DNA from: a virus
Direction: 5' to 3' (one strand)
Length of the DNA stretch: 43,720 bases
Virus record (IMG/VR): IMGVR_UViG_3300037189_014561
Coordinates: 1 to 43,720 of that record
Every line of letters starts with the position of its first letter. Position 1 is the first letter of the stretch. The position numbers were made by a program, and so were the translations under genes. The notes under the pieces are model-generated. The model was not told the DNA's origin. It saw only the letters and a program-made list of their open reading frames with translations, and made no database searches. Of this stretch, positions 6,080 through 37,603 are shown piece after piece.

Positions 6080-6364
6080 TCAAGGATGCCCGATGCGAGA
6101 GGCTAGATCGTCAATTCGCTTTTCGAGGGCATTCATTCGTTCCCTCGTCTGGGCCAGCTCGATGAGGATGTCAGTTTGCTTTTTCAGCTCAACTTCCATA
6201 TCATCCATGCGTTCACTGATTCCACCTACACTTACCACCACTAGGTTCAGTTTTGACAGCAGAGAGTACACTGCAGTCATAACTGAGCCCAGTACTGTGA
6301 GCATGGTAAGCAGGTTCCCAAGATCAATGTGTGAAAAGTCGAGGCTCACGGATAGGCTCTCCAC
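6080..6364 (-). CDS. Membrane-anchored coiled-coil protein in lysis cassette, 94 aa
   Basis: One hydrophobic segment (LLTMLTVLGSVMTAVYSLL, residues ~18-36) leads into a second hydrophobic patch (LNLVVVSVGG) and a long coiled coil (ERMDDMEVELKKQTDILIELAQTRERMNALEKRIDDLASRI). It overlaps the endolysin gene end by 19 bp. It could be a holin, a spanin-like or an accessory lysis protein; no family was recognised. Confidence 0.68.
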   Translation of the reverse strand: MESLSVSLDFSHIDLGNLLTMLTVLGSVMTAVYSLLSKLNLVVVSVGGISERMDDMEVELKKQTDILIELAQTRERMNALEKRIDDLASRIGHP

Positions 6365-30028: not shown

Positions 30029-30126
30029 GATTAGGGCATATATCAGGAATGGGCAAAAATCACCATGGGCCTGGATCCCGATTTTTGGTTTTTTTGTGGG
30101 CCAGTGACCCGTCGCACCTGAAGGAG

Positions 30127-30407
30127 GTGCGACAAATTGTCGCACCCCTGCGACAAAATGCCGCAGCGGTACCCGGGGGTCAAGCCTGCGACAAATTGAC
30201 CCACCCCCTTGACTGGCGGAAAATCATGCGACACTTTGTCGCATTGACAAAGCGGAAGGGCGCAAAATCATGCGACATATTGACGCAGGTTGAGGGTGCG
30301 ACATAATGTCGCATTGACTCAAAAAACGGCGCAAAGGGGTGCGGCAAAATGACGCAGGGGATTGACACCCATCTAACCCATTGAAATCATGCGGCATCAC
30401 GCCGCAC
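30127..30407. repeat. Array of eight 19-bp palindromes (operator or iteron candidates)
   Basis: Copies lie at 30127-30145, 30148-30166, 30186-30204, 30226-30244, 30270-30288, 30296-30314, 30339-30357 and 30389-30407. The first, GTGCGACAAATTGTCGCAC, is a perfect palindrome; the consensus is RTGCGRCAN-N-NTGYCGCAY. Centre spacings are 21, 38, 40, 44, 26, 43 and 50 bp. Copies 3-8 have TTGAC within or shortly after them. A half site GTCGCACC precedes the array near 30111. A dimeric DNA-binding protein is the natural reader. Confidence 0.92.
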
Positions 30408-30428
30408 CCCCTTGACACCATTTGGGGC

Positions 30429-30456
30429 TCGACCCGGCCGAAAAAATCGGTATGAT
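30429..30456 (+). promoter_or_regulatory. Weak sigma-70-like promoter for the early block
   Basis: TATGAT (30451-30456) is preceded 16 bp upstream by TCGACC (30429-30434), a poor -35. It lies just downstream of the palindrome array, so array-binding protein could control it. Confidence 0.4.
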
Positions 30457-30594: not shown

Positions 30595-30665
30595 CAACCG
30601 ATCATCGAGTCGCATGGATGGTGGTGGTACAATTCCCCAGTCCGTGCCCAAATCGAAAATAGTTG

Positions 30666-30719
30666 GGTGTTGCCCGACTCGCACACCAAGACCATGCGGT
30701 GTGTGGCTCGGGCAACACC
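30666..30719 (+). promoter_or_regulatory. Long leader hairpin upstream of first early gene
   Basis: GGTGTTGCCCGA (30666-30677) pairs with TCGGGCAACACC (30708-30719), a perfect 12-bp outer stem. An inner stem CACACC (30682-30687) / GGTGTG (30698-30703) closes a 10-base loop, with a small internal loop between the stems. It lies ~30 bp before the ATG at 30749. It may be a mRNA-stabilising structure, an attenuator or a protein-binding site. Confidence 0.75.
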
Positions 30720-30748
30720 AAACAACCCGCCCAAAGGAGACTACAATC

Positions 30749-31276
30749 ATGGCGAAGAAAACACAGGTTGAGTTCACGTCGCAGGGTTTCATCACGGAAA
30801 ATCACTGGGATGAGACATTGCTTGGACGCAACGAGTGGAAGTGGGACGACCACTTTGGAATCGAAGGCGACACGATCCGGGAAGACAAGATCCCGTTCGT
30901 GAAGTACCTGATCAGCCGCGGAATTAACGAGTCCGTGCAGAACAGTTACCAAGCGCACGCCAAAGGCACGGGCCTCGAGCCCCGCCGAGTAGCGTTCAAT
31001 CGTCGAGTCGCGGACCTCATGGCAGGCATCTGGGAACGTGCAAAGACGTCCCGCGCCGAGCCGGAAATCGACCTCGATGCGATGACACTCAAAGTCGTCG
31101 TAGCGAAGTCGCTGATGAAGGAATACGACATCAGCCCCGCAGAGTGCAAGGCATTGCTGAAGAGTGTCGAATTCGCGGCCCAGGAAGTTGCACGTCGCAA
31201 CGGACTGGATGCGAAGGAGATCCTCGCCACATGGAAGCAGCGCGCCGAAGACGATCTCAGCGGCCTCCCGATGTGA
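30749..31276 (+). CDS. First early-block protein, hypothetical, 175 aa
   Basis: ATG follows an AAAGGAG ribosome site. The protein is charged and helical (NRRVADLMAGIWERAKTSRAEPEIDLDAM, then KSLMKEYDISPAECKALLKSVEFAAQEVARRNGLD). The C-terminal half could be a small DNA-binding fold, but no clear helix-turn-helix is visible. As the first substantial gene downstream of the palindrome array it is a candidate array-binding regulator or host-takeover protein. Confidence 0.82.
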   Translation: MAKKTQVEFTSQGFITENHWDETLLGRNEWKWDDHFGIEGDTIREDKIPFVKYLISRGINESVQNSYQAHAKGTGLEPRRVAFNRRVADLMAGIWERAKTSRAEPEIDLDAMTLKVVVAKSLMKEYDISPAECKALLKSVEFAAQEVARRNGLDAKEILATWKQRAEDDLSGLPM

Positions 31277-31353
31277 CACGCGGTGCGGGCTTGGACAACC
31301 ATCCGAGCCCCATCCGAGTTTCACACTCACAACACCCAACAAGGAGAGAGACA

Positions 31354-31686
31354 ATGCAAATCAATCTGGATGTGATCGCCGGACTCCACCGCGAAGCCCG
31401 GATCACGGATCAGCTGCCGAAGGCATTCCCATTCCCCCTGACGGTTGAATACTACAACCTGCAAGCGGAGAATTACATGCTCACCCAACCAGTCTACACC
31501 TACCACGCACTGGTTGAACGATACGCCTCGCTCATGAAGTACATGACGAACCATCCTTCACACGTCGAGCCGGACTCGGTGGCACTCCACTGGTTGACAC
31601 CAGACGGGATGTATCCAGTCTTCGGATACAACGAGAAGAGCGGGCTCACCTATCCACTCGGTGACCTGCCCTTCGAACATCCCTAA
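31354..31686 (+). CDS. Hypothetical early protein, 110 aa
   Basis: A strong AAGGAGAG ribosome site precedes ATG. Aromatic-rich sequence (YYNLQAENYMLTQPVYTYHALVERYASLMKY) with no recognised domain. Followed by a structured intergenic element. Confidence 0.8.
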   Translation: MQINLDVIAGLHREARITDQLPKAFPFPLTVEYYNLQAENYMLTQPVYTYHALVERYASLMKYMTNHPSHVEPDSVALHWLTPDGMYPVFGYNEKSGLTYPLGDLPFEHP

Positions 31687-31687
31687 G

Positions 31688-31745
31688 GGATTACACTTCG
31701 AGGGGCCGCATCGCGGCCCTTCATGGATGCAATCCCTGCATCAAA
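31688..31745 (+). ncRNA. Structured intergenic element, copy 1
   Basis: Stem GAGGGGCCGC / GCGGCCCTTC with loop ATC (ten pairs including one G-T wobble). The flanking GGATT and AATCC can also pair, enclosing it, and GATGCA / TGCATC forms an alternative second hairpin. A related copy at 32088 keeps the structure with three compensated pair changes, which supports an RNA function such as processing, stabilisation or regulation. Confidence 0.7.
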
Positions 31746-31778
31746 CCTACCTTGTAACACCCAACGAAGGAGACTGAC

Positions 31779-32087
31779 ATGAGACTCATCCCGAAAGTGG
31801 AGAACACCATGTCGAAAGAAGAAATCGCGAACCAGACTCTCACCATCGAGTCCGGTGTGCCGGTGCCTAGCACCAAGGGCCGGAAGGCATTGTTTCCCGC
31901 ACTCCCCATCCATCGGATGGAGTCAGGAGACTCGGTCGTGATCTGGGGGATCAATAGGGCCTCCCACATCACATCCGTAGCCAATCGGACGCGGAAGACA
32001 GCTGCGAAACTTGGCCGTGAAGTCCGGATCTTCACCAAGCATGTCACGGAAAATGGCAAGCATGGTGTGCGGTTCTGGATCGTCTAG
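31779..32087 (+). CDS. Hypothetical early protein, 102 aa
   Basis: A GAAGGAG site precedes ATG 31779. An N-terminal acidic part (MSKEEIANQTLTIESGVPVPSTKGRK) leads to SGDSVVIWGINRASHITSVANRTRKTAAKLGREVRIFTKHV, a strand-helix-strand pattern with a basic helix that might bind nucleic acid. Similar short proteins occur in other phages; no function was recognised. Confidence 0.8.
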   Translation: MRLIPKVENTMSKEEIANQTLTIESGVPVPSTKGRKALFPALPIHRMESGDSVVIWGINRASHITSVANRTRKTAAKLGREVRIFTKHVTENGKHGVRFWIV

Positions 32088-32144
32088 GATTACACTACGA
32101 GGGGTGGCAACGCCACCCTTCACGGATGCAATCCTGCATCAAAT
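32088..32144 (+). ncRNA. Structured intergenic element, copy 2
   Basis: Stem GAGGGGTGGC / GCCACCCTTC with loop AAC, bounded by GGATT and AATCC as in copy 1. Three stem positions differ from copy 1 on both sides in a compensating way. It lies between two early genes. Confidence 0.7.
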
Positions 32145-32169: not shown

Positions 32170-32514
32170 ATGGTAATTCAAGATGGAATTAAGTTCTTCC
32201 GTCGAAACCCCACTGTGCTCACGGATGAAGACTATCTTATCCTCGCCGACACAGTCGTGATGTTCTTCCCTGCTGACAACCTTGCAGACTTTGTGAAGAG
32301 TCTGGATCGGATGTGCCAAGAGGCACATCGGGAGTTCCTCGATTACGAAGATGAGTTTCGTTACCACCATCTCGAGTCCTTCCTCCGAGCCATGATCCAG
32401 TGTCTGCACGACAGAGACTACTGGTTCGAAGGTGGCTTTGGTGCCGGACCACTGGTGATGTGTCACCAGGACATCCAAGCCCCACCCGAAGGTTACCAAG
32501 GCCCTGTGAAATGA
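32170..32514 (+). CDS. Hypothetical early protein, 114 aa
   Basis: CAAGGAG ribosome site precedes ATG 32170. Acidic, helical protein (LTDEDYLILADTVVMFFPADNLADFVKSLDRM, YEDEFRYHHLESFLRAMIQCLHDRDYW). No motif was recognised. The stop overlaps the next ATG (ATGA). Confidence 0.78.
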   Translation: MVIQDGIKFFRRNPTVLTDEDYLILADTVVMFFPADNLADFVKSLDRMCQEAHREFLDYEDEFRYHHLESFLRAMIQCLHDRDYWFEGGFGAGPLVMCHQDIQAPPEGYQGPVK

Positions 32515-32978: not shown

Positions 32979-33001
32979 TTTCCACGGGAAATTGTATATA
33001 C
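32979..33001 (-). promoter_or_regulatory. Motif copy 4: GTATATAC / TTTCC / GGAAA element, minus orientation
   Basis: On the minus strand it reads GTATATAC, AA, TTTCC, CGT, GGAAA. It lies 14 bp after a stop and upstream of the plus-strand gene at 33046, pointing opposite to the genes. Confidence 0.6.
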
Positions 33002-33222: not shown

Positions 33223-33772
33223 GTCTTTCCCCCATTCCTTCACTTGGAAGAAGGAGTGGGTGAGAGAATCCACCTACCGTCCCCCATCTTCTGGCTGGAG
33301 GCCGAAGGCCAGCATGAGGGCAGGACTTCGTTTCGAGGAAAATGTGGGGAAGATCCTTCTTCTCCTCGCCCAGGAGCACGGCTTCTCCTACCACTTCCAG
33401 AAAGCCTTCGAGTCGCCTGAAGGCACAAAGATCCCTGACCATTTCTGGCTGCCCAAGGGGAGATTTAACCCCGGCAAGGCTGAGTACCCCGAGCTCGGTT
33501 TCGTCTTCGAGACGAAACTCACCTGGCGACAGAGCGCCATCAGCCAACTCCGCTCCTATTCCGGAATCCTGAGCTCTTATTACTCCGTCCCTTTCGTCCA
33601 AGTGATTATTGCGAAGAACCTTTCTCCGAAGATGACCGGGAGTGAACTCATTTCCTCCTACTCCACCCTCCCCCTCCTCAACTCCGAGGGGCCTTTCACT
33701 CTCCACTCCTTGTGGCCAGAGTACACCTTGAGGGAGCTAGACCGAGTTGATTTACCCGATTTTTCCGATTGA
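33206..33772 (+). CDS. PD-(D/E)XK nuclease-fold protein, 188 aa
   Basis: After a basic N-terminus, RAGLRFEENVGKILLLLAQEHGF (Glu near residue 42) is followed by KIPDHFWLP and FVFETKLTWRQSAISQLRSY. The E, PD and ExK residues in that order are the PD-(D/E)XK signature, as in small phage endonucleases or resolvases. FVQVIIAKNLSP is a likely next strand. It lies immediately before the large inverted repeat, which could be relevant if it acts on cruciform DNA, but that is inference. Confidence 0.72.
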   Translation: MPPSHKSFPHSFTWKKEWVRESTYRPPSSGWRPKASMRAGLRFEENVGKILLLLAQEHGFSYHFQKAFESPEGTKIPDHFWLPKGRFNPGKAEYPELGFVFETKLTWRQSAISQLRSYSGILSSYYSVPFVQVIIAKNLSPKMTGSELISSYSTLPLLNSEGPFTLHSLWPEYTLRELDRVDLPDFSD

Positions 33773-33775
33773 GAC

Positions 33776-34027
33776 ATTCTGTCTCATTTGATCTCATTCG
33801 GTCTCATTGCCTATGATCTCAAAAACACATGGGTGGGGGAGGGTATATACACCCCTGGACCCCCGGAGGGGTGGGTACCTTTACTTATAAAAAAAAAAAA
33901 AAAAAAGAACAAACAGTGAACACCCACCCCCTGTCTCCCATCCGCCACAGGGGTGTGTCCCCCTCCCTCTCCCATCAAAAATCACATCATAGGCAATGAG
34001 GCCAAACAAGATCAAATAAGAGATAAT
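33776..34027. repeat. Large imperfect inverted repeat centred on an A18 tract
   Basis: A ~250-bp palindrome. CTCATTGCCTATGAT (33803-33817) matches ATCATAGGCAATGAG (33986-34000) perfectly, and ATTTGATCT (33786-33794) matches AGATCAAAT (34009-34017) on the same axis. Further inside, ACACCCCTG (33849-33857) matches CAGGGGTGT (33948-33956), and GGGGTGGGT (33868-33876) matches ACCCACCCC (33922-33930). The axis falls at about 33902, in an A18 run (33889-33906). The left arm has TCTCATT at 33782, 33792 and 33802, spaced exactly 10 bp. It contains no gene. Candidate replication origin or cruciform/terminator region. Confidence 0.88.
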
Positions 34028-34056
34028 TCCACAATCTCAATCACCGGGAAAACGGG

Positions 34057-37035: not shown

Positions 37036-37521
37036 ATGACTGAAGAAACTTCCAACCTCCGCGAAATCACCATCCAGGGAACCGAACTCTCCCTCGAGGT
37101 GCCCTATTCTGAGGGCCATGTGCTGACGGCTGCGGAAGCAAGCCAGCTCAATCAAGTGTACTGTGAAAACCTCGGCAACAACTTCCGTTCCAAGGTCAAG
37201 GAAATGCTCGAGGGTGGATCCTCGGTTGACGACATTCAGGCCGCGTTCGACGCCTACGCCGATGCCTACGAGTTCGGCTCCCGCCGGGCTTCGTCAGGTA
37301 CCAAGCGCACCGCCGACCCCATCGAGAAGGAAGCCCGTGCCCTCGCCAAGCGTGCGCTCACCGAGTTCTTCAAGAAGAAGGACATCGACTACTCCTCCCT
37401 CTCCGTGGATGAGAAGGAGCAGAGCCTCCGTACTTACATGGAGAAGCACGGTGAGAAGGTGCGAGAAATCGCAGCCCGCCGAGTTGCCGACCAGAAGGCC
37501 ATGGCGGAAGCCGGTCTCTGA
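37036..37521 (+). CDS. Hypothetical conserved-type phage protein, 161 aa
   Basis: ATG follows AAAGGAA. Contains a strand-rich start (NLREITIQGTELSLEVPYSEGH), and a Tyr-rich helical middle (DDIQAAFDAYADAYEFGSRR) followed by a charged C-terminus (EARALAKRALTEFFKKKDIDYSSL, EIAARRVADQK). It has its own promoter and is followed by two hairpins, so it is a single-gene unit and likely well expressed. Function unknown. Confidence 0.83.
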   Translation: MTEETSNLREITIQGTELSLEVPYSEGHVLTAAEASQLNQVYCENLGNNFRSKVKEMLEGGSSVDDIQAAFDAYADAYEFGSRRASSGTKRTADPIEKEARALAKRALTEFFKKKDIDYSSLSVDEKEQSLRTYMEKHGEKVREIAARRVADQKAMAEAGL

Positions 37522-37526
37522 GGGGC

Positions 37527-37563
37527 GTGACCTAGGGTTTCGTTGGGTGTTCCCCTAGGTCAC
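37527..37563 (+). terminator. Hairpin after the 37036 gene
   Basis: GTGACCTAGGG (37527-37537) pairs perfectly with CCCTAGGTCAC (37553-37563). No T tract follows, so it may stabilise the 3' end or act with the next hairpin. Confidence 0.6.
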
Positions 37564-37569
37564 CGCAGT

Positions 37570-37603
37570 GGGGGGAGAGTTTTAGTCTCCTGGCTCTCCC
37601 CCC
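37570..37603 (+). terminator. Second hairpin in tandem
   Basis: GGGGGGAGAG (37570-37579) pairs perfectly with CTCTCCCCCC (37594-37603), followed by ATCTTCTTTCTTCC. The T-rich tail suggests an intrinsic terminator. Confidence 0.65.

Follow-up and report, generated by a model that had tools for sequence, protein, structure and literature searches.

A stop-codon-linked hairpin plan at three consecutive gene junctions of a presumed phage early operon

The early operons of phages contain many genes that belong to no recognised family, and their expression is timed post-transcriptionally by unknown means. The viral DNA considered here, a 43,720-base virus record in IMG/VR (hereafter the window), raises this question at the junctions between small genes, where an earlier note had described two similar intercistronic elements with paired changes in their central stems. 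Are these elements selected as RNA structures and, if so, what might they do between one gene and the next? A stop codon tied to a switchable hairpin, with its pairing kept across relatives, would constitute a testable gene-boundary module.

The operon and its relatives

The minus strand of the window carries a large-terminase gene and an SU10-type portal. A rightward operon of small, family-less genes, presumed to be early from its gene layout, starts from a regulatory region at about 30.1-30.46 kb that holds many TGCGACA/TGTCGCA repeats and sigma-70-like promoters. Repeats of this type at 30123-30416 are interleaved with several TTGAC-type promoter-like boxes, as they are also in the two related phages introduced below, and the cluster is probably a multi-operator control region. 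The head of the operon and the genes around the elements (sites 0, 1 and 2, numbered from upstream) are as follows.

30429..30456, + strand: TCGACC/TATGAT, a promoter-like sequence heading the early operon, beneath the cluster of repeated operator-like sequences
30752..31276, + strand: early gene for a 174-aa protein, upstream of site 0, conserved in both relatives, of no known family
31354..31686, + strand: early gene for a 110-aa protein, flanked by sites 0 and 1, with no relative found
31779..32087, + strand: early gene for a 102-aa protein, flanked by sites 1 and 2, with no relative found
32170..32514, + strand: early gene for a 114-aa protein, downstream of site 2, with no relative found

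None of the genes next to the elements matches a Pfam or PHROGs family, RNA-binding and single-stranded DNA-binding families included, a missing match being weak evidence for small diverged proteins. Protein scans of IMG/VR and GTDB genomes found the 174-aa gene in two relatives only (61% and 39% identity) and the 102-aa gene nowhere. These relatives, L004 and L005, have terminases of 90% and 89% identity and share their gene order with the window; both lack sites 1 and 2 together with the genes that those sites flank.

One plan at three junctions

The two elements of the earlier note exist and its central stem sequences were quoted correctly; aligned without gaps (31688-31735 and 32087-32134), the two are 85% identical over 48 nt, and the second copy of GGATTACAC begins at 32087 rather than 32088. 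The central stem is nevertheless only part of each element; what had been overlooked is a further hairpin, GATGCA/TGCATC, together with a strand on the stop codon that pairs with the loop of that hairpin. Nor are there only two elements, since a third of the same plan, although more diverged, stands one gene upstream.

31272..31328, + strand: site 0 element
31272-31276, + strand: 5' strand of P1 at site 0, TGTGA, including the stop codon TGA at 31274-31276
31287-31310, + strand: HP1 of site 0
31316-31328, + strand: HP2 of site 0, with the 3' strand of P1, TCACA, at 31321-31325
31329..31347, + strand: CAACACCCAACAAGGAG, the A/C-rich leader with its ribosome site that follows site 0
31686..31742, + strand: site 1 element, 57 nt
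31686-31692, + strand: 5' strand of P1 at site 1, AGGGATT, overlapping the last base of the stop codon TAA at 31684-31686
31700-31722, + strand: HP1 of site 1
31726-31730/31738-31742, + strand: stem of HP2 at site 1, its loop carrying the 3' strand of P1 at 31731-31737
31756-31765, + strand: box AACACCCAAC after site 1, also present in the site 0 leader
32085..32140, + strand: site 2 element, 56 nt
32086-32091, + strand: 5' strand of P1 at site 2, AGGATT; stop codon TAG at 32085-32087
32099-32121, + strand: HP1 of site 2
32125-32129/32136-32140, + strand: stem of HP2 at site 2, with the 3' strand of P1 at 32130-32135
L085:10676-10735, + strand: site 0 orthologue in L004
L089:2143-2199, - strand: site 0 orthologue in L005

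Three consecutive early-gene junctions thus share one plan. A strand on the upstream stop codon is followed by a GC-rich hairpin of 9-11 bp (HP1), a linker of 2-5 nt and a hairpin of 4-6 bp (HP2) whose loop is able to pair with the stop-codon strand (P1), after which come an A/C-rich leader and the ribosome site. A stop codon lies under the element in all five cases (the three window sites and those of L004 and L005), and the window elements end 25-36 nt upstream of the next start codon. Exact matches to GGATTACAC occur in the window at sites 1 and 2 only, and the same is true of GGATGCAATCC. The box AACACCCAAC lies immediately 5' of the ribosome site in the leaders of sites 0 and 1, while the site 2 leader has the shorter form CAACACTCAAGGAG. 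Cluster K mycobacteriophages likewise carry repeats in the non-structural half of the genome, known as SAS and ESAS, in which an inverted repeat accompanies a conserved box at translation starts (PMC3203893). The likeness lies in this repeated combination of an inverted-repeat element with a short box at translation starts. The ESAS, however, consists of a single 17-bp inverted-repeat pair whose spacer varies, whereas the present elements combine HP1, HP2 and P1 in other sequences, and the 13-bp SAS, GGGATAGGAGCCC, is absent from all three window leaders.

Seven substitutions separate sites 1 and 2, two on each arm of the HP1 stem and three in the loop or linkers, and no pair is broken. The double changes in HP1 are C-G to U-A and C-G to G-C, so that pairing is kept as had been proposed, but at two pairs and not at three. 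With substitutions placed at random, at least two compensations with none broken arise with P=0.0006. P1 supplies a third double change, G-C to A-U, and its length shifts on both strands (AGGGATT/AATCCCT against AGGATT/AATCCT). When the pairs of these two sequences alone were shuffled, 68 of 500 shuffles equalled the real pair, a control that two rows make weak; relatives are therefore needed, and it is from them that the weight of evidence comes.

Site 0 in the window and in both relatives retains an HP1 of 9-11 pairs whose letters are quite different in each phage, and the HP2 stems read GAGT/ACTC, GAAGGT/ACCTTC and TGAGTC/GACTCA. P1 is fully different between the class of sites 1 and 2 and that of site 0, yet is still paired (GGATT/AATCC against GUGA/UCAC), and exchanging the 5' strands between the classes brings its pairing down to 2-3. 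The five elements have 7, 6, 5, 6 and 4 Watson-Crick pairs in P1, with shuffle P of 0.00025, 0.006, 0.013, 0.008 and 0.13, values that are not independent because the elements within a class are related. A MAFFT alignment of the five was not consistent with the structure, and pairs were therefore compared by hand-defined helices. The comparison with related genomes, in which arms varying without compensation would have spoken against selection, thus comes out in its favour, with the site 0 plan present and its pairing kept in two relatives and sites 1 and 2 without an orthologue. That HP1, HP2 and P1 are all kept in relatives while their letters differ bears out the proposal of a selected structure ahead of the ribosome sites of early genes, and we consider the elements very probably to be selected RNA structures, although a DNA-level role, as a cruciform, is conceivable.

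A mutational origin has also to be weighed, whereby a unit of element plus gene was copied and the compensation arose through palindrome-templated switching, with no selection on RNA. Sites 1 and 2 do form a duplicated unit around one gene absent from the relatives, and the two changed HP1 pairs are adjacent and could be produced by one template-switch event; the adjacent compensations could in part have come about in this way. As a complete account it is highly improbable, given that two overlapping pairings (P1 and HP2) are both maintained in the same segment and that the orthologous site 0 keeps its plan in three phages despite different stem sequences.

In a sliding scan the z-scores of minimum free energy are -6.1 for site 1, -4.7 for site 0 and -4.5 for site 2 against a mean of -0.9 (sd 1.5), but fold energy alone is not decisive because some coding windows reach equally low values. 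A scan of 1.12 Mb for the architecture, stop codon required, returned the five family sites and three chance matches, a figure which gauges specificity and is not blind, the descriptor having been written after sites 1 and 2 had been seen and the site 0 regions read. The covariance-model search that the earlier note had suggested recovered both sites from which the model was built, but no further member: confident matches were those two only, in 1.12 Mb and 25 viral records, with weak matches to their own reverse complements. This model misses site 0, so that the case for relating the two classes depends on architecture, on position and on a short run that they share in the stretch between P1 and HP1.

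Rfam release 15, at the gathering score and at relaxed thresholds, contains no credible match to the elements. Scans with conserved leader strings returned L004 and L005 only, besides chance matches, and no members beyond these three phages were found in the data searched, in which the distribution is narrow. The sole exact-pattern match to both flanks in IMG/VR, L001, was dismissed as chance, since it lies within a helicase-like open frame and shows no folding (z -0.2). A mobile repeat was likewise rejected, there being just two close copies, neither found elsewhere.

Competing folds and function at the gene boundary

Each element taken alone has two competing folds, one irregular hairpin (conformer A, comprising P1 plus HP1, 19-23 bp in all five elements) and a pair of hairpins (conformer B, HP1 plus HP2). 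Predicted energies, in kcal/mol, are as follows.

Site 1: conformer A -31.5, conformer B -27.6
Site 2: conformer A -25.9, conformer B -24.9
Site 0: conformer A -31.5, conformer B -23.4
L004: conformer A -32.5, conformer B -27.8
L005: conformer A -31.4, conformer B -30.6

When sites 1 and 2 were folded in full native context with nested, pseudoknot-free pairing, conformer B was favoured and P1 formed in only 0-3%, so that the long hairpin at these sites may need a pseudoknot or kinetic help. As modelled, P1 and HP2 exclude each other except within a pseudoknot. With HP2 treated as a stem opened on its inner side, the two helices use separate bases and could form together, the pseudoknot loop being nearly all paired; known kissing-loop complexes suggest that a pseudoknot with so tight a loop would be feasible.

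A function at the gene boundary is suggested by where the elements lie (on a stop codon and, in the window, 25-36 nt short of the next start), by the absence of a U-tract and by how large fold A is. An intrinsic terminator was rejected; a terminator scan of the + strand finds no such site at 31.2-32.2 kb, and there is no U-tract. Our preferred explanation, held tentatively, is that they are T7-like intercistronic elements, serving for processing or as boundaries, that possess one further, alternative hairpin. Five cut sites in the early RNA of T7 yield messages of one and two genes (PMC4858673), and in assays with the E. coli enzyme a 12-bp stem and one set of recognition boxes suffice for RNase III to cut a single strand (PMC8708148). 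The T7 signals (R0.3, R0.5, R1, R1.1 and R1.3) resemble the present elements in being irregular hairpins with internal loops between early podovirus genes, placed on or just after the stop codon of one gene and ahead of the ribosome site of the following one, with several per early operon. When the T7 junctions were put through the same folding program, irregular hairpins of some 17-21 bp resulted, except that R1.1 took a different fold in the segment chosen. The gene 0.4 stop codon is part of the R0.5 lower stem, and R1 starts one base past the stop of gene 0.7. Conformer A has the same make-up of two helices and an internal loop between early genes.

By analogy with T7, the long hairpin would be cut by a host double-strand endonuclease of RNase III type, near the internal loop or in the linker between HP1 and HP2. 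The upstream mRNA would then keep HP1 as a 3' cap right behind its stop codon, and the downstream mRNA would carry HP2 as a 5' cap before its ribosome site. Because a ribosome completing the upstream gene would sit over the P1 strand, which state the element adopts would hinge on whether that gene is translated. Such a model accounts for all three helices, the cut itself being a prediction, and the pair of HP1 and HP2 suggests how one cut could give both products a hairpin cap; if true, it would extend the RNase III logic of T7 to another phage group. Against it, conformer A is not the favoured fold of sites 1 and 2 in their native context, the T7 upper-stem sequence AAGGTC...GGCCTT is absent, HP1 differing in sequence, and the two sets share no common sequence; moreover, the HP2 that is added here around the 3' strand of the lower stem has no counterpart at T7 sites. 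A phiEco32-like phage is also reported to have hairpins between its genes, at which RNA ends have been mapped and whose role is unsettled (PMC8948821).

The same overlap of pairing and stop codon would suit a translational operator or coupling switch. Here a pseudoknot between the stop-codon strand and the HP2 loop, located 25-36 nt ahead of the start codon, would be opened or fixed by a finishing ribosome or a phage protein and would thus set initiation of the next gene, in the manner of T4 gene 32 or of the repYZ-type logic of plasmids. The conservation of both P1 and HP2, compatible only as a pseudoknot, speaks for it, as does the presence of the 5' strand on the stop codon in 5/5 elements. 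The T4 gene 32 operator is a pseudoknot upstream of an unstructured leader that covers the ribosome site (PMC3014915), and the A/C-rich leader and ribosome site that follow the possible pseudoknot here are laid out similarly. The present elements depart from that operator in having a GC hairpin inserted, in overlying the stop codon of the gene before and in being followed by three unrelated family-less genes, and Pfam and PHROGs reveal no single-strand binding protein among the downstream genes. We regard an operator as unlikely, given that the predicted folds do not strongly occlude the ribosome site, that the neighbouring genes lack a recognised RNA- or ssDNA-binding family and that an element common to three adjacent genes would be unusual for autogenous control.

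GC-rich hairpins occur at other gene ends of these three phages, which would agree with a plain mRNA stabiliser or Rho shield guarding 3' ends and covering untranslated RNA with no specific cutting; this is an unlikely explanation, as it leaves the conservation of P1 and HP2 and the overlap with stop codons unaccounted for. Two tandem stem-loops within about 57-60 nt of an early transcript also recall the putL and putR antiterminators of HK022, whose RNA (about 70 nt, two stem-loops; PMC9378689) binds the transcribing polymerase and carries it past downstream terminators. A put-type role seems decidedly unlikely nonetheless. Each HK022 operon has a single copy, with putL just below PL and putR about 270 nt downstream of the PR start, whereas the present elements repeat at consecutive junctions some 0.8-1.7 kb below the promoter-like site; P1 ties them to stop codons, of which put needs none, and no strong + strand terminator was seen nearby in the window.

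The leader hairpin and a candidate antisense loop

Two further hairpins bear on the early leaders.

30662..30723, + strand: long leader hairpin of the early operon, core of 12+9 bp, z -6.6
37527-37603: hairpin with loop TTTCGTTGGGTGTTC, after a 161-aa gene at 37036-37521

The left arm of the leader hairpin, GTTGGGTGTTGCCCGA, is identical in both relatives, and the structure is possibly a further hairpin of the processing type. A small open reading frame apparently lies between its two arms in L005. The complement of the box AACACCCAAC, GTTGGGTGTT, is found both in this left arm and in the loop of the hairpin that follows the 161-aa gene, where 13 nt of TTTCGTTGGGTGTTC are complementary to the site 1 leader (gene 31779). 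In both relatives the corresponding hairpin carries the loop motif GTTGGG(T/C)G on a stem that differs, and the complementarity of the loop to early start regions exceeds that of shuffled loops in each genome (P 0.015, 0.006 and 0.004). Three distant relatives of the 161-aa gene (L123-L125) are without the GTTGGG loop. Judged by complementarity, these observations suggest that the loop is a candidate antisense regulator of the early leaders. A second, terminator-like hairpin follows that at 37527-37603.

Taken together with the folds, the loop would allow a broader reading, in which the elements are translation-sensing switches and the AACACCCAAC boxes are read by the antisense loop GTTGGGTGT, making an RNA-only timer of early genes. 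A ribosome ending the upstream gene would keep the P1 strand open, and the junction would flip between the long hairpin, nuclease-cut or blocking, and the two-hairpin or pseudoknot form; the conserved antisense loop, which sits in the 3' hairpin of a later gene, would provide the timing. We hold this combination to be very unlikely.

Elsewhere in the window, a word like GTATATACA recurs between genes near 32994, 33845 and 34650, and is found in L005 too; it is possibly a phage promoter or operator motif. A long inverted repeat with 67-nt arms, 76% complementary, surrounds an A-run at 33751-34052 and is a possible candidate for a replication origin, and L004 has an A-run region resembling it near 6350.
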